This document shows positions 32,813-38,714 of a DNA stretch of 64,000 bases, one piece after another. Location of the stretch: contig NZ_RQWN01000005.1 of the NCBI RefSeq assembly GCF_003977755.1, forward strand, positions 62,001 through 126,000, in the 5' to 3' direction. The notes beneath the pieces were generated by a model. That model searched no databases. It was not told where the DNA came from and saw nothing but the letters and a program-made list of their open reading frames with translations. The first letter of the stretch is position 1; each line of letters opens with the position of its first letter. The position numbers and the translations under genes were made by a program. Source of the DNA: Haloterrigena salifodinae (GTDB taxonomy: Archaea > Halobacteriota > Halobacteria > Halobacteriales > Natrialbaceae).

Positions 32813-33185
32813 GCTGAACCATGCTCCGTCCGGCACGATCGACCGATCCGTTCGACCGCTCTATCGACGTGTTCGACCGGACTGTCGAATCGCTCGACCG
32901 CACTGCTGGACCATTCGGCGGCGCCGTCGAACGGGCAGATCACACTGTCCGCTGTCGTCCGTATATCCGTGCTAGTCGGAGGGCAAGCGAACATTCATTC
33001 TGACGATCTCTTGTTAGCAGAAAAACCATATCGATATCTCGACCTGCACGTTCCTATCGATCGGCGAGCTCCACCGCGGCTCGAGGACCATGTCCCCGGT
33101 GAGACGGGCCTCGAGTCATTCAGTCGCTCAGTCGCTCGAGCGCGACGCGAACCTATTTCACGGACCGCGGACCAACGTCGAGCCA
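32813..33185. other. Gene-free interval upstream of menB
   Basis: These 373 bases separate the divergent membrane-protein and menB genes. The part 32830-32935 is made of loosely repeated TCGACCG-like hexamers and gives spurious frames in several phases. The frame open upstream of menB (from 33090) is rejected because its residues do not match the enzyme's N-terminus. No RNA gene or repeat copy is seen. Confidence 0.55.
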
Positions 33186-34130
33186 ATGGTTTCGGAACTG
33201 TTCGACCCCGAGCGCTGGGAGCCGGTCGCGGAACTGAACGACGAGTTCAGCGACATCACCTACCATCGAGCGGTCGACTCCGGCACGGTCCGGATCGCCT
33301 TCGACCGGCCCGACGTGCGCAACGCCTTCCGGCCGGGCACCGTCGACGAACTGTACGACGCCCTGGATCACGCCAAGCGCCAGACCGACGTCGGCTGCAT
33401 CCTGCTGACCGGCAACGGGCCGTCCTCGAAGGACGGCGGCTGGGCGTTCTGCTCCGGCGGCGATCAGACGGTCCGCGGTGAGGACGGGTATCAGTACGGG
33501 GGTGACGAGGAGAGCGAGGCGCTTCGCGCCTCGGAAGACGCGAGCGGGCAGAGCCCGCGAGCGCGAGCCTCGGAGCAGGGACGGTTGCACATCCTCGAGG
33601 TCCAGCGTCTCATCCGCCACATTCCGAAGGTCGTCGTCGCCGTGGTGCCGGGATGGGCCGTCGGCGGCGGCCACTCGCTGCACGTCGTCTGCGACCTCAC
33701 ACTCGCGAGCGAAGAGCACGCGAAGTTCCTCCAGACCGACCCCGACGTGGCGAGCTACGACGCCGGCTTCGGCTCGGCCTATCTCGCAAAGCAGATCGGC
33801 CAGAAGAAGGCCCGCGAAGTCTTCTTCCTCGGGAAAACGTACGATGCCGACGAGGCCGCGGAGATGGGAATGGTCAACGAAGCGGTCCCCCACGAGGAGC
33901 TCGAGGAGACAGCCCTCGAGTGGGGCGAGCGCATCAACGCCAAGAGCCCGACGGCGATGCGGATGCTCAAGTACGCCTTCAACATGACCGACGACGGAAT
34001 GATCGGCCAGCAGGTCTTCGCCGGCGAGGCGACGCGACTGGGCTATATGACCGACGAGGCCAAGGAGGGCCGGGACGCCTTCGTCGAAGGCCGCGATCCC
34101 GATTTCGACGACTTTCCGTGGCACTACTGA
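33186..34130 (+). CDS. menB: 1,4-dihydroxy-2-naphthoyl-CoA synthase
   Basis: The 314-residue crotonase-fold enzyme closes the second ring of the naphthoquinone from o-succinylbenzoyl-CoA. Family motifs are present: FDRPDVRNAFRP, FCSGGDQTVRG (oxyanion hole), VVPGWAVGGGHSLHVVCDLT, and the C-terminal FNMTDDGM and FAGEATRLGYMTDEAKEG. A stretch of about 25 residues after GYQYGG is extra relative to the bacterial enzyme. It is encoded by small perfect DNA hairpins and lies in the flexible loop after the SGGDQ motif. The start at 33186 gives the usual N-terminus. Confidence 0.94.
   Translation: MVSELFDPERWEPVAELNDEFSDITYHRAVDSGTVRIAFDRPDVRNAFRPGTVDELYDALDHAKRQTDVGCILLTGNGPSSKDGGWAFCSGGDQTVRGEDGYQYGGDEESEALRASEDASGQSPRARASEQGRLHILEVQRLIRHIPKVVVAVVPGWAVGGGHSLHVVCDLTLASEEHAKFLQTDPDVASYDAGFGSAYLAKQIGQKKAREVFFLGKTYDADEAAEMGMVNEAVPHEELEETALEWGERINAKSPTAMRMLKYAFNMTDDGMIGQQVFAGEATRLGYMTDEAKEGRDAFVEGRDPDFDDFPWHY
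33515..33558 (+). repeat. Hairpin insertion inside menB
   Basis: Two perfect stem-loops lie head to tail. The first is CGAGGCGC-TTC-GCGCCTCG (33515-33533) and the second is GCGGGC-AGA-GCCCGC (33544-33558). They encode part of the extra loop residues (SEALRASEDASGQSPRARAS). The first has the same CGCTTCGCG centre as the small hairpins of the intergenic repeat copy A. Insertion of a mobile hairpin-type repeat into a tolerant loop is inferred. Confidence 0.6.
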
Positions 34131-34263
34131 GCGCCTGATCGATCCGATTCGCCGTCGGTGACTGTCTCGGATCGGATCGTAACTGTACGGGAGGCGACTC
34201 AACTCGGTCGAGCGCGCGTTTCATTCGTCGGTTTCGACGCCACTCAGCCCTCAGCCGTACTGC

Positions 34264-34352
34264 TACTGCTGGCAACGGGGATGCCACGTCCTCCCCAATT
34301 GATTCGCTTAGGCGGTCACCAGCGCGCGCCACCGCACGCCGGATCCACCACT
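34264..34352 (+). repeat. Dispersed intergenic repeat, copy C (short)
   Basis: TACTGCTGGCAACGGGGATGCCACGTCCTCCCCA is followed by a shortened middle (ATTGATTCGCTTAGG) and the end block CCAGCGCGCGCCACCGCACG. It lies in the 347-base gap 34131-34477 between menB and the DyP-like gene, in the same orientation as copy A. No gene is seen in the gap. Confidence 0.7.
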
Positions 34353-34477
34353 GGCGAGACGTCCCTGTTCGAGTGGGAGCGATTCCGTGTACACTGATAA
34401 CACTCCTTGAGCCGGTTGGTTCGACCCTGCGATTAGGGGAGAAAATCATTTGAGCGTCGGCGCCCGACTTCCGACCA

Positions 34478-35743
34478 GTGACACTTCCCGATCGGTCCGC
34501 GCTGTCTCGCCGGGACTACTTCCGGGCGCTGGTGGCCGTCGGCGGCGCGTCGGCACTCAGTGCTTGCCTCTCCGAGGACAGCGACGAAGAAGTCGACGTC
34601 CCCTCCGGAACCGACGATCCCGACTCGCTGCCGGCGCGACAGCACGCCTGGAACGAGTTTCTCTCGACGGACGACGACGGGAACGTTCAATTGCCGGAAC
34701 ACCACGTGCTGGTGGCGCTGTCGCTCTCGACCGAGCCGTCCGACGACGCTCGAGCGCAGGTCGAGGATGCGCTTCGAACCCTCGAACGCGCCTACGAGTG
34801 GAGCAACGAGGGGTTGGTCTTCACGATCGGCTACACGCCGGCGTACTTCGACCGGTTCGACGGATCGCTGCCCGACTCGATCGACCTTCCCGATCCGGAG
34901 CCGATCGTCGGCGACGCCGACAGGTTCGACGAGTTCGACGCCGTCCTCCACCTCGCCAGCGACCACCCGGAGGTTACCCTCGAGGCCGAGCAGGGGCTGT
35001 TCGGCGAGCGCGACGAGTACAACGGCCTCGGGATCGAGACGGATCTGACGGGCGTCTTCGAGCGCGTCGACGAGCGGCGCCGGACCGGCTTCATCGGGGC
35101 GGGGCTTCCTGCCAACCACACCAATCTCGACGGCGTTCCGGAGTCGATTCCCGACGAGGCGCCGTCGCTGATGGGCTTTCGGTCGGGATTCGCCGAGAGC
35201 CAGGCCCCCGAGGATCGCGTGACGATCACGGAGGGGCCGTTCGCAGAGGCGACGACCCAGCACGTCTCCTCGATGGGGCTCAACCTCCGGCAGTGGTTCG
35301 AACAGGACAGCCAGGACCAGCGCGTCCAGAAGATGTTCAGCCCGGTACACGCCGACGAGAATGCAGTCGGCACGACCGGCGAGAAACTGACGACGACCAA
35401 CGGACTGACCGACGAGCGCATCGCGGCGACCGAAGCCGACGCCAGCGACCGCGGCGTCGTCGGCCACGCCCAGAAGGCCGCCCGCGGACGCGAAGACGGG
35501 AAGCCGCCGCTGTTGCGACGCGACTTCAGCACGGTCGACGACGACCAGCCGGGAGTCCACTTCCTCGCTCTCCAGGAGAGGATCGAGGAGTTCGTCCGCG
35601 TGCGGCAGGCGATGGAGGGCGCCGACCTCAACGTGACTAACCTCAACAACGGCATCACCGGCTACATCTTCGTCGACCGACGCGGGAATTACCTGCTCCC
35701 GCCGCGGTCGCTGCGGGCGTTGCCGCCGGCGAATCCTGACTAG
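34478..35743 (+). CDS. Tat lipoprotein distantly resembling DyP-type peroxidases (DUF7405-like)
   Basis: The 421-residue precursor starts with GTG and has a Tat signal ending in a lipobox (LSRRDYFRALVAVGGASALSAC). The mature part, with repeated blocks such as HHVLVALSLS and GVHFLALQ, suggests the two-domain ferredoxin-like fold of dye-decolourising peroxidases. The usual GxxDG heme-site motif appears as GFRSG, so the acid is missing, and heme binding is uncertain. Its neighbour is an iron-transport-like lipoprotein. This recalls the EfeB/EfeO pair of bacterial ferrous iron uptake, but no EfeU-type permease is adjacent. Confidence 0.72.
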   Translation: MTLPDRSALSRRDYFRALVAVGGASALSACLSEDSDEEVDVPSGTDDPDSLPARQHAWNEFLSTDDDGNVQLPEHHVLVALSLSTEPSDDARAQVEDALRTLERAYEWSNEGLVFTIGYTPAYFDRFDGSLPDSIDLPDPEPIVGDADRFDEFDAVLHLASDHPEVTLEAEQGLFGERDEYNGLGIETDLTGVFERVDERRRTGFIGAGLPANHTNLDGVPESIPDEAPSLMGFRSGFAESQAPEDRVTITEGPFAEATTQHVSSMGLNLRQWFEQDSQDQRVQKMFSPVHADENAVGTTGEKLTTTNGLTDERIAATEADASDRGVVGHAQKAARGREDGKPPLLRRDFSTVDDDQPGVHFLALQERIEEFVRVRQAMEGADLNVTNLNNGITGYIFVDRRGNYLLPPRSLRALPPANPD

Positions 35744-35786
35744 ACGACTCGAGGACGAGACCGACAGACGACTCACGACCATCCAC

Positions 35787-37001
35787 ATGGACCACGAAAT
35801 CGATCGACGGACGTTCGTCGGCTGGACGGGAGCGGCGACCGGCGCGCTCGCGCTGGCGGGCTGTCTGGGCGAGGACGGCGACGACGACGGAAACGGCGGC
35901 GAGCAGAACGAAACCGACGAGGAACCGAACGAGACCGTCGACGTCGCGCCTCCGTTCCCCGAAATCGAGGACAAACCGGACGCGGTATACGTGCCGACCC
36001 ACCGCGAGTCGATGCGGGCCCTCGAGCCGATCGCAGCCGGCGACTACCGGCTCGCGCCGATGCTGTCGTACCCCCACCCGTTCTGGACCGTGACCGGCGA
36101 CGGCGAGGACGACGTCCAGCACGTCACGCCCGAGCAGATGCGGGGCGTCCACATGATGTTCACCCTCCGGGACGCCGAGACGGGCGTCGTTCTGCCGATC
36201 GACAGCGGCGTCGTCGTCAGACTCTCTCGGGACGGCGAGCGGGTCGGATCTTCGCAGTCGATGTGGTCGATGCTCTCCCAGGAGATGGGTTTTCACTTCG
36301 GCGACAACGTCCCCCTCGAGGACGACGGCACCTATACGGTCGAGGTCGAACTGCCACCGCTGTCGGCGCGAACGACCGGCGACCTCGCGGGTCGGTTCGA
36401 CGAGCGCGAGACCGTGACCTTCGAGTTCGACTACGATCAGGAGTTTCGCAAGTCAGTCACGGACATCGAATACTTCGACGAGCAGCGGTGGGGCGAACGC
36501 GGCGCCCTCGAGCCGCCGGACCAGGGCGAGATGCCCTACTCCCAGCTCCCCGAAGTCGACGCGTTCCCCGGGACGCTCCTCGTCGACCCCGACGGCGAGC
36601 GACCCGACACGACAGCGGACCTGCCGCGGAGCGGCGACGCGGCGTTTCTCGCGACTGCCATCGGGCCGGACCATCGGCTGGCCGACGGCGACAATCCGTA
36701 TCTGCTCGTCTCGCCGCGGACGCCGTACAACCGCGTCCCGCTTCCGAACATGAGCCTCGAGGCGACGGTCGAACGCGACGGGAGGTCCGTCACCGACGAC
36801 CCCGTTTCCCTCGAGCAGACCATCGACGGCGAGTACGGGCTCCACTACGGCGCGTCGCTCGAGGGCGTCGATCTCCGGGCCGGCGATACGGTGACGCTGA
36901 CGATCCGGTCGCCACCGCAGGTCGCCCGCCATCAGGGGTACGATACGGCCTTCCTCGAGATGCCGCCGATCGAACTGCGGGTGCCGGAGGCCGATGCCTG
37001 A
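35787..37001 (+). CDS. Tat lipoprotein related to P19-type iron-transport proteins (DUF7350-like)
   Basis: The 404-residue precursor has a Tat signal and lipobox (DRRTFVGWTGAATGALALAGC) followed by an acidic Asn/Glu linker. The mature part contains MLSYPHPFWTV, VHMMFTLRDAETG and SMWSMLSQEMGFHFGDNVPLEDDGTYTVEV. This Met/His-rich pattern resembles the periplasmic metal-binding P19 family. It lies 43 bases after the DyP-like gene and overlaps the next gene by 8 bases, so all three are probably one operon. A role in metal capture at the cell surface is inferred. Confidence 0.78.
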   Translation: MDHEIDRRTFVGWTGAATGALALAGCLGEDGDDDGNGGEQNETDEEPNETVDVAPPFPEIEDKPDAVYVPTHRESMRALEPIAAGDYRLAPMLSYPHPFWTVTGDGEDDVQHVTPEQMRGVHMMFTLRDAETGVVLPIDSGVVVRLSRDGERVGSSQSMWSMLSQEMGFHFGDNVPLEDDGTYTVEVELPPLSARTTGDLAGRFDERETVTFEFDYDQEFRKSVTDIEYFDEQRWGERGALEPPDQGEMPYSQLPEVDAFPGTLLVDPDGERPDTTADLPRSGDAAFLATAIGPDHRLADGDNPYLLVSPRTPYNRVPLPNMSLEATVERDGRSVTDDPVSLEQTIDGEYGLHYGASLEGVDLRAGDTVTLTIRSPPQVARHQGYDTAFLEMPPIELRVPEADA

Positions 37002-37701
37002 GAGCCGGATTGCGGCCGTCCTCTCGGCCGCGCTGGCGGCCGTCGTCGCCTGCGGGCTCCTCTTCGCCCCGCTCGCGTTCGTCCCCGCGCCGGCCGGCGC
37101 CATCGACAGCGCGACGCTGCTGTACTTCGACTCCGAGGGGTTCAACGACGACACGACCGAGATCGACGTCGCGCCCGGCGAGACCGTGACGCTCGATCTC
37201 GTGGCGAGCACACACGGCAACCCCGCGGGCAACGGGATCAGCGGGCTCTCCTACGCGATCGAGTACGATCCCGACGTGCTCACCGTGACCGACGTCCAAC
37301 AGGGATCGATGCTGGCTGGCGGGGACGAGGGCGGGAACGCCACGGTCGACGGCGACGTCGAGATCGACGACGAAGCCGGCGTGATTACGGTCGAGCAGGA
37401 GCGAACCCCGCCGGGGAACGGCACGACGGGAACCGGACCGACGGCGACGATCTCCCTCGAGGTCAGTGAGGACGCGCCGACGACCAACGAGACCCTCGCG
37501 ATCACGGACGAGTCGGCGATGTTCCCGAGCGGCTATCCGGTCGATCCGGTCGAACGTAACGCGACGCTGGTCGTCGACGGCGCCGCGGGCGACGAGAGCG
37601 ACGGCGGCCTCGAGGATCCCGTCCCCGGACTGACGCCGCTGACCGGAGTGGCCGGGGTGGCCGGTCTCGGCGCGGTGCTCTGGCTGCGGGCCCGACGGTA
37701 G
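36994..37701 (+). CDS. Secreted cohesin-domain protein with C-terminal membrane anchor
   Basis: The 235-residue product has an N-terminal signal (AAVLSAALAAVVACGLLFAPLAF). It has a cohesin-like beta-sandwich at about 40-200, including EIDVAPGETVTLDLVAS, LSYAIEYDPDVLTVTDV and GPTATISLEV. A C-terminal PGLTPLTGVAGVAGLGAVLWLRARR tail follows, which resembles PGF-CTERM-type sorting signals or a simple anchor. Such proteins are common at the haloarchaeal surface. Its start lies inside the iron-transport-like gene, so it is probably made with it. Confidence 0.82.
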   Translation: MPESRIAAVLSAALAAVVACGLLFAPLAFVPAPAGAIDSATLLYFDSEGFNDDTTEIDVAPGETVTLDLVASTHGNPAGNGISGLSYAIEYDPDVLTVTDVQQGSMLAGGDEGGNATVDGDVEIDDEAGVITVEQERTPPGNGTTGTGPTATISLEVSEDAPTTNETLAITDESAMFPSGYPVDPVERNATLVVDGAAGDESDGGLEDPVPGLTPLTGVAGVAGLGAVLWLRARR

Positions 37702-37772
37702 CGGCGATCGATCCGACTTTCGATCGATCGCAATGCCAACGTTGACACTTCCGCGAGTGGGACACTCGAGCA

Positions 37773-38714
37773 ATGAGTACGGCCGAGGTCGATATCTCAC
37801 GGACAAAGGCGTGGTTGATGGCCGCACGCCCGCAGACGCTGCCCGCGGCCGCGGCGCCGGTGATCGTCGGGACGGGAGTCGCGCTCCACGAGGGCGTGTT
37901 CGCCCCGCTGCCGGCGCTGCTGGCGTTCGTCGGCGCGGCGCTGATTCAGATCGGGACCAACTTCGCGAACGACTACTACGACGCGATCAAGGGAGCCGAC
38001 ACTGACGACAGGGAGGGGTTCACGCGGGTGACCCAGGCGGGGATCATCTCCCCGGAACAGGTGAAGCTGGCGACGTTCGTCACCTTCACGCTGGCGATCC
38101 TGTCGGGAACCTACCTCGTCTACGTCGGGGGCCTGCCGATCCTCGTCGTCGGGCTGGCGAGCGTCGTCTGCGGCTGGGCCTACACCGGCGGCCCCTATCC
38201 GCTGGGCTACCACGGTCTCGGGGACCTGTTCGTCTTCGTCTTCTTTGGACTCGTCGCCGTCATGGGGACGTTCTACGTCCAGGCTGCGGCGACCGTCGCC
38301 GAACCGCTGACGACGGCGATCCCCGACGGAACCGTCACCCGCGAGGCGTTCTTCGCGAGCCTCCCGGTCGCCGGCATCTCGACGAGCATCATCGTGGTCA
38401 ACAACATCCGCGACCTCGAGACCGACGCCGAGACCGGCAAACGGACGCTAGCGGTTCGGATCGGCTACCGCTGGAGCCGCGTCGAGTACGCCGCGCTGCT
38501 CGGGCTCGCCTACCTCGTGCCGCCGTGGCTCTGGCTGGCCGAGGGGTTCGGCCCGCGCGTGTTGCTGCCCCTCGCCTCGCTGCCCTACGCGGCCGTCGTC
38601 GCCCGCACGGTCTGTACGCGGACCGACGGCGAGGCGCTGAACCCGGCACTCGAGGGAACCGGCAAACTGCTGGCGATCTACGCGATCCTGTTCGCCGCGG
38701 GGGTGGCGACGTAG
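37773..38714 (+). CDS. menA: 1,4-dihydroxy-2-naphthoate polyprenyltransferase
   Basis: This UbiA-family membrane enzyme attaches the isoprenoid chain to dihydroxynaphthoate. The 313 residues contain the two aspartate-rich Mg-prenyl-diphosphate motifs, NFANDYYDAIKG near residue 70 and NNIRDLETDAETGKRTL near 210. About eight membrane segments are visible. MAARPQTLPAAAAPVIVG at the N-terminus is characteristic of MenA. It is the first of three closely packed men genes. Confidence 0.95.
   Translation: MSTAEVDISRTKAWLMAARPQTLPAAAAPVIVGTGVALHEGVFAPLPALLAFVGAALIQIGTNFANDYYDAIKGADTDDREGFTRVTQAGIISPEQVKLATFVTFTLAILSGTYLVYVGGLPILVVGLASVVCGWAYTGGPYPLGYHGLGDLFVFVFFGLVAVMGTFYVQAAATVAEPLTTAIPDGTVTREAFFASLPVAGISTSIIVVNNIRDLETDAETGKRTLAVRIGYRWSRVEYAALLGLAYLVPPWLWLAEGFGPRVLLPLASLPYAAVVARTVCTRTDGEALNPALEGTGKLLAIYAILFAAGVAT

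Follow-up and report, generated by a model that had tools for sequence, protein, structure and literature searches.

In the genome of the haloarchaeon Haloterrigena salifodinae (4.96 Mb), three genes lying head to tail encode a protein of family DUF7405, a protein that joins a P19-like domain to a DUF7350 domain, and a protein with a cohesin domain (Table 1). The window, that is, the whole stretch of DNA that was analysed, comprises 64,000 nt of contig NZ_RQWN01000005.1; among the named relatives found, Haloterrigena salina is the closest, with 94% identity in the first gene. We propose that the first two genes are a conserved haloarchaeal pair that handles metal outside the cytoplasm and, more tentatively, that the capture and oxidation of copper(I) is its most likely function. 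The pair is real and conserved and probably serves metal handling, with the cohesin gene as a lineage-specific addition. An initial annotation of the stretch, made from the sequence alone, had placed the three genes where we find them and described the first two products as lipoproteins exported by twin-arginine translocation (Tat). Both proteins indeed carry an RR motif followed by a lipobox cysteine, read directly from the sequence (RRDYF, then LSAC, in the DUF7405 protein and RRTF, then LAGC, in the P19-DUF7350 protein).

The two families occur together across the haloarchaea. Among 292 haloarchaeal genomes, DUF7405 was found in 261 and DUF7350 in 254; 253 genomes contained both and 30 contained neither, 8 had DUF7405 only and a single genome had DUF7350 only. 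The co-occurrence is significant with p = 2e-32 by Fisher's exact test, which ignores phylogeny. This comparison was made by hand, and the genomes without a match (11 for DUF7405 and 18 for DUF7350) were taken as those absent from the match rows. Within one genus rich in losses, the 26 genomes with the genus shown comprised 9 with both families, 5 with DUF7405 only, 1 with DUF7350 only and 11 with neither (p = 0.005). H. volcanii carries both. Gene order was compared in 81 loci, consisting of the window and the best 80 of 205 loci by similarity to it, a selection that overweights the Natrialbaceae. In 62 of the 81 loci a P19 gene lies downstream of DUF7405 in the same orientation, and in 54 of these 62 its reading frame opens within 250 nt; 4 loci are otherwise arranged and the remaining 15 have no P19 gene nearby. 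The arrangement of the three genes is far beyond chance.

Pfam assigns the first protein to DUF7405 alone (PF24152, E = 1.3e-145). The initial annotation had called it distantly similar to the dye-decolorizing peroxidases (DyP), and the AlphaFold model bears this out: built from 43 sequences, with a predicted local distance difference test score (pLDDT) of 88.5, it matches DyP peroxidases in Foldseek (E = 2.5e-15, the rows shown being DyP-type), with EfeB of Sphingomonas as the best structural match (Z = 27.0, root-mean-square deviation 3.1 over 314 residues), the top rows differing little from each other. A full-length but weak hhalign alignment sets H330 and R347 of DUF7405 opposite H329 and R347 of E. 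coli EfeB, which we take to be the proximal heme histidine and the distal arginine, respectively. Each of the two residues is kept in all 43 DUF7405 sequences. The aspartate of the GxxDG motif, by contrast, is missing. The initial annotation had noticed GFRSG in its place, and this motif is found at residues 233–237. The aspartate position (S236) holds serine in 41 and asparagine in 2 of the 43 sequences and, in a previous alignment of 12 rows, alanine in 9; aspartate is absent from all 77 loci, out of 81, that were readable by pattern search.

When the 43 members were scanned singly, 22 gave a match to Dyp_perox_C with E no higher than 1 (1e-7 for the best one), the protein of the window not being among them. 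Searches with the Dyp_perox_C (PF20628), FTR1 and PCuAC models covered the genomes of 61 relatives. Dyp_perox_C gave 12 matches over the cut-off in 10 of these genomes and none in the window's own genome; a canonical DyP elsewhere in the 61 genomes was rejected as a candidate, the highest score being 30.6 bits; of the 12 matches, the 7 that could be compared fall on DUF7405 genes themselves. Studies of DyP enzymes, as represented in the available part of the review PMC8197335, are divided on the GxxDG aspartate, which is essential in some enzymes, with the arginine carrying more weight in others. The DyP fold, the retention of H330 and R347 and the absence of the aspartate together point to a divergent branch of the DyP superfamily with a plausible, putative heme site, and we do not file DUF7405 as a DyP peroxidase proper.

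The second protein matches both DUF7350 (PF24041, E = 7.4e-55, residues about 272–397) and P19 (PF10634, E = 7.7e-6, residues about 73–223). In the AlphaFold model (pLDDT 88.9) the N-terminal domain has the FetP/P19/Tp34 fold, with Z up to 12.7 for FetP over residues 73–222, and the DUF7350 domain is all-strand and Ig-like. The P19 part, used as a profile, matches FtrA with E = 2.5e-8. Residues were mapped by HMMER alignments to PDB sequences, the part around the HLEAD motif coming from FtrA alone. M162 and H170 align with the methionine and histidine of the FtrA motif PMVAxDGPH; the histidine is presumably a copper-site residue, and a copper role of the methionine is backed by the title of a PDB entry for a copper-bound M88I protein. 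H122 keeps the histidine of HLEAD. Where FtrA has His151, which is mutated in 8vv6, the consensus of the haloarchaeal proteins is arginine.

The initial description of this protein as iron-transport-like holds for the fold and family of the N-terminal domain, but the residues expected to hold iron are replaced. In P19 of C. jejuni, Glu3, Glu44, Asp46 and Asp92 hold manganese as an iron analog, according to the portion of PMC9174327 that was available. By spacing, Glu44, Asp46 and Asp92 fall on M124, T126 and M167, Glu3 being outside the mapping. M124, M162 and M167, as well as H97, H122 and H170, are each present in 51 of 51 P19-DUF7350 sequences; position 126 is threonine in 35, serine in 8, valine in 4 and alanine in 3. 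A Met/His/Trp cluster of the type M124/M162/M167/H122/H170/W160 is what a Cu(I) site would look like, and judging from the sequences this Met/His site is most likely a candidate Cu(I) site. The linker between the two domains is rich in histidine in 14 of 46 P19 proteins, with 9–28 His residues, and this feature tracks the presence of a cohesin gene: it is seen in 13 of 18 proteins whose locus has one, compared with 1 of 28 without (p = 1e-6 by Fisher's exact test, again ignoring phylogeny).

Copper is favored by several considerations: the methionine substitutions, the neighborhood of a second P19-DUF7350 gene in this genome, which adjoins genes for SCO1, for a redoxin and for a membrane protein that is CcdA-like by reading, the result for PCuAC, which exceeded the cut-off in none of the 61 relatives and thereby leaves room for another copper carrier, and the precedent of a copper cluster in Streptomyces, taken up at the end. 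The histidine-rich linkers, a cupredoxin-domain protein encoded after DUF7405 in one haloarchaeon and the PCu(A)C genes beside DyP sequences in Paenarthrobacter and Dietzia count on the same side. We infer the following mechanism. After Tat export, both members of the pair would sit as lipoproteins on the outside of the membrane. P19-DUF7350 would bind the metal, Cu(I) being the most likely one, at a Met/His site that descends from that of P19, and DUF7405 would bind heme via His330. With Arg347 but no distal aspartate, DUF7405 might slowly oxidize Cu(I) to Cu(II) using peroxide or oxygen, and the oxidized metal might be passed to surface cuproproteins or kept harmless. Where present, in Natrialbaceae and some Halorubrum-like archaea, the cohesin protein is translationally coupled to the pair; it would probably serve close to the membrane as a docking or metal-accessory partner and not as a receptor for dockerins.

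Several observations weigh against copper or against the heme site. The sequence match between EfeB and DUF7405 is weak (hhalign probability 8%, E = 0.004). The linker of the window's own P19-DUF7350 protein contains no histidine. SCO1 stands beside a P19-DUF7350 gene, within about 1.5 kb, in only 2 of 33 loci, and a link to SCO1 as a general rule for the P19 paralogs was rejected on this count; four further SCO matches are the P19 reading frame itself, probably detected via the histidine-rich linker. Scores favor a relationship with the DyPs of copper clusters, a PCuAC-linked DyP being the best of nine against DUF7405 (13.6 bits; hhalign E = 1.6e-8), but the tree sets DUF7405 on one long separate branch with no decided side of the DyP family, so that close kinship was discarded as a candidate and we make no such claim. 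Annotations in the records call several of these proteins iron transporter or Dyp-type peroxidase. In 8 loci of Natrinema type, of which one member was scanned (L109:8235–8891), a Dps-type gene is divergent from DUF7405; these 8 belong to the 15 loci without a nearby P19 gene. Plasmids add to this side. DUF7405 occurs in 37 plasmid records, of which 14 regions were examined, and six of the 14 hold a metal island with the order DUF7405-P19-P19 and a heavy-metal P-type ATPase (L157:3504–19227, and L152, L156 and L158–L160). A transporter of the cation diffusion facilitator type is in view in four of the six, and four of the six add a DtxR/MntR-type regulator, a multicopper oxidase, a ZIP-like transporter and a plastocyanin just upstream, gene identities being taken from the record annotation and families tested on one island. 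The combination of the regulator with the ZIP-like transporter suggests an iron context, and the island ATPase gives better scores with models for Cd/Zn than with those for Cu.

These observations give some weight to an iron-uptake module that would work in the manner of EfeB together with P19/FtrA, in which DUF7405 would oxidize Fe(II) or strip heme, P19-DUF7350 would capture the iron, and an importer other than FTR1 (ZIP, DsbD_2-type or ABC) would take it up. We rate this as less likely than copper, but it is the most serious competitor. The folds and ancestry shared with DyP/EfeB and P19/FetP favor it, as do the divergent Dps-type genes, the regulator (read here as DtxR/FeoA-type), multicopper oxidase and ZIP-like transporter of four of the six islands, and a DsbD_2 membrane protein that overlaps the P19 gene in Halarchaeum and lies directly upstream of DUF7405 in two further loci (L094 and L096); in bacteria P19 serves iron uptake and has thioredoxin partners, as stated in the accessible part of PMC10783030. 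On the other hand, FTR1 (PF03239) exceeded the cut-off in 0 of the 61 relatives and had no match in the window's own genome, the acidic residues of the iron site are replaced, two of them by methionine in every sequence, and the main text of a paper on the proteome of H. volcanii under iron starvation contains neither 'peroxidase' nor 'P19'. Still less probable is a pair devoted to surface peroxide or oxidative stress, in which DUF7405 would remove peroxide at the surface and the P19-like protein would keep redox metal away. The DyP fold and the Dps-type neighbors of the Natrinema-type loci are consistent with it, and removal of H2O2 by DtpA is also proposed by the Streptomyces authors in the available text of PMC4736821, but the catalytic aspartate is absent from every locus that could be read and the usual partner of DUF7405 is a protein of metal-binding type, not an oxidase. 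Copper(I) capture and oxidation remains our preferred, if tentative, assignment.

The cohesin domain of the third protein is clear in Pfam (PF00963, E = 4.9e-10) and matches a scaffoldin cohesin in PDB with E = 0.0029. Its sequence shows a signal peptide and, at the C terminus, a hydrophobic segment that ends in RARR, a relative at locus L117 has a PGF-CTERM anchor motif, and each protein scanned has a single cohesin stretch. The gene overlaps its predecessor by 8 nt, in keeping with the overlapping gene for an anchored cohesin protein described at the outset; among 22 adjacent gene calls for P19 and cohesin, 19 overlap by 4 nt. A cohesin gene follows the P19 gene in 30 of the 81 loci, the window included, so its conservation beside the pair is real, but nearly all of these loci belong to Natrialbaceae, the others being one Halorubrum (L141) and one Haloparvum (L117) record. 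The pair is kept without the cohesin gene in Natrialba asiatica, Natrialba aegyptia, Natrialba taiwanensis and Halopiger goleimassiliensis. The cohesin protein is a lineage-specific, family-level addition to the pair and not a scaffold of cellulosome type.

The initial annotation had suggested that the cohesin protein could scaffold the other two at the cell surface in a metal-capture assembly. The part of this proposal that survives is the linked, exported pair of EfeB- and P19-related proteins, probably handling metal. Recruitment of the two proteins through cohesin–dockerin contacts is very improbable. The tight translational coupling and the cohesin fold itself would suit it, and some archaeal cohesin–dockerin pairs do bind, according to the part of PMC9012536 that was available, but a scaffold sits poorly with a single cohesin stretch per protein, and the Pfam scan found no dockerin in either partner. 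Moreover, 17 of 29 genomes with the cassette cohesin gene have no match to Dockerin_1, two of the 17 being metagenome-assembled genomes that may be incomplete, and on such counts a cellulosome-like scaffold was rejected. The search for dockerins elsewhere in this genome returned one match, over the cut-off once and just under it in a second scan; it belongs to a PhoX-like protein encoded on another contig, where a second cohesin gene, adjacent to a 5'-nucleotidase, lies 14 kb away. In three loci (L112, L117 and L141) a gene of 5'-nucleotidase type also stands immediately in front of the cassette. In view of these neighbors and of the genomes without a dockerin, cohesin proteins here attend several exported enzymes, and the metal cassette needs no dockerin.

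Two further observations concern cohesins and dockerins at large. The second cohesin gene with its 5'-nucleotidase (L166:1784–4918) and the PhoX-like gene 9 kb further on (L166:13922–16564) are a better candidate for a true cohesin–dockerin pair. A haloarchaeal genome of the same order (G002, 2.7 Mb) has 56 Dockerin_1 and 2 cohesin matches, and neither DUF7405 nor DUF7350.

The features of the cassette are collected in Table 1. When 28 related loci were cut at the start codon of the first gene, positions −35/−34 and −30 to −28 were 82–100% A/T, and the start codon was GTG in 27 loci and ATG in one. The TATA-like element 28–35 nt before the start seems to act as a promoter, as far as its position and composition can tell. 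The gene upstream of the cassette is menB, and the next two downstream are menA- and menC-like by our own reading of their sequences, with no search behind these labels. No permease adjoins the cassette among the neighboring genes, as the initial annotation had remarked.

Table 1. Features of the metal-handling cassette and its upstream region (coordinates refer to the window).
Feature	Position	Strand	Basis
TATA-like element, putative own promoter of the cassette, probably leaderless	34443..34450	+	28 loci aligned at start codon
DyP-superfamily Tat lipoprotein (DUF7405), 421 aa, GTG start	34478..35743	+	Pfam, AlphaFold, EfeB alignment
Tat lipoprotein with P19-like and DUF7350 domains, 404 aa	35787..37001	+	Pfam, AlphaFold, FtrA profile match
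Protein with one cohesin domain, a signal peptide and a C-terminal hydrophobic anchor, 235 aa	36994..37701	+	Pfam, PDB match

Other genes recur around DUF7405. In 24 loci the gene immediately before it, in the same orientation, belongs to the menB cluster, and 26 of the 81 loci contain a menA-like gene; in the window, the stretch that places the cassette among menaquinone genes is 33090–38714. A regulator with an HVO_0163-type N-terminal helix-turn-helix (HTH) domain and an ArsR-like HTH domain (L119:8042–8913), accompanied by a small DUF7471 protein, stands just upstream of DUF7405, and this regulator cluster is seen in 11 loci. A Tat lipoprotein with weak beta-propeller matches (L075:7322–8671) is divergent from DUF7405 and its cluster is seen in four loci. 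In Natrinema thermotolerans a cupredoxin-domain protein follows DUF7405.

The delivery of copper and iron outside the membrane is little known in archaea. If our proposal is correct, it would give a function to DUF7405 and DUF7350, two families of unknown function common to most haloarchaea, and would provide an example of a carrier that changed its metal through a swap of ligands. It would also bear on whether DyP proteins can act as metal oxidases without the catalytic aspartate, and on the role of single cohesin domains in the absence of dockerins, a point raised by the copper-responsive cohesin gene of Streptomyces. What is new is the class-wide pairing of two unknown families, the exchange of ligands at the P19 site, the absence of the DyP aspartate and the match to the Streptomyces cluster. 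We found no paper on DUF7405; judged by titles, the literature on haloarchaeal dye-decolorizing peroxidases has nothing on the DUF7405/P19 pair, and the literature on haloarchaea with cohesin and dockerin, or on Haloferax with iron and P19, is unrelated.

Comparison with known systems places the cassette among several partial relatives. The initial annotation had likened the first two genes to EfeB and EfeO of bacterial iron uptake. The DyP fold, Tat export and the aligned proximal histidine and distal arginine are shared with EfeUOB, but the likeness fails elsewhere: the genome has no match to FTR1/EfeU, the aspartate of GxxDG has become serine, and the partner is of P19 type, with iron-site residues replaced, in place of the cupredoxin-M75 EfeO. 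Peptidase-M75 is not found in the three cassette proteins, the rest of the genome not having been searched for it. Canonical EfeUOB and the FetMP/FtrABCD systems were rejected because FTR1 was not over the cut-off in the 61 relatives. With P19, FetP and FtrA the second protein shares the fold of the N-terminal domain and the aligned copper-site methionine and histidine; it differs in the exchange of acidic iron-site residues for Met/Thr, in its additional C-terminal DUF7350 domain, in the histidine-rich linker of some relatives, and in having a DyP-like partner and no FTR1/FetM partner. The third protein resembles the archaeal noncellulosomal cohesins as a single anchored cohesin domain in an archaeon and differs from them in being translationally coupled behind metal genes and in persisting in genomes without a dockerin match.

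The closest described parallel of the cassette is a copper cluster of S. lividans, sco-ecuc-SLI_4212-dtpA, next to which lies a cohesin gene that responds to copper; defects of dtpA are rescued by copper and not by Fe, Zn, Mn or Co (PMC4736821, available part). Both, as far as that text goes, bring together a DyP-superfamily protein exported by Tat, lipoproteins that bind metal and a gene with a cohesin domain, so the initial impression that such an assembly had not been described does not stand. The carrier is P19-DUF7350 in the cassette and ECuC/Sco in Streptomyces. We take ECuC to be of PCuAC type, and neither Sco nor ECuC is found among the three cassette proteins by Pfam. The cassette differs further in that DUF7405 lacks the GxxDG aspartate and in that no counterpart of the putative copper transporter SLI_4212 is recognised beside it; the two cohesins are likened by description only, not by sequence. 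Streptomyces plasmid DyPs were rejected as a source of the dtpA cluster, as four records have no annotated sco, ecuc or cohesin neighbors; in one such plasmid a beta-propeller lactonase-family gene lies beside the DyP (L184:3863–6232). In Paenarthrobacter a PCu(A)C gene neighbors a DyP gene together with CopC, with no cohesin in the two upstream reading frames, and in Dietzia PCu(A)C is next to a DyP fragment. A content of DyP, metal lipoprotein and cohesin is therefore already known in bacteria, with other carrier families. We speculate, with less assurance than for the copper assignment itself, that a P19 iron carrier became a Cu(I) chaperone by the exchange of acidic residues for methionine and the addition of an Ig-like domain, and was paired with a class-wide DyP branch that would oxidize metal by means of heme, histidine and arginine although it lacks the distal aspartate. 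With the cohesin gene added in Natrialbaceae, the cassette would be an archaeal counterpart, apparently without PCuAC or FTR1, of the Streptomyces cluster of DtpA, copper chaperones and cohesin.

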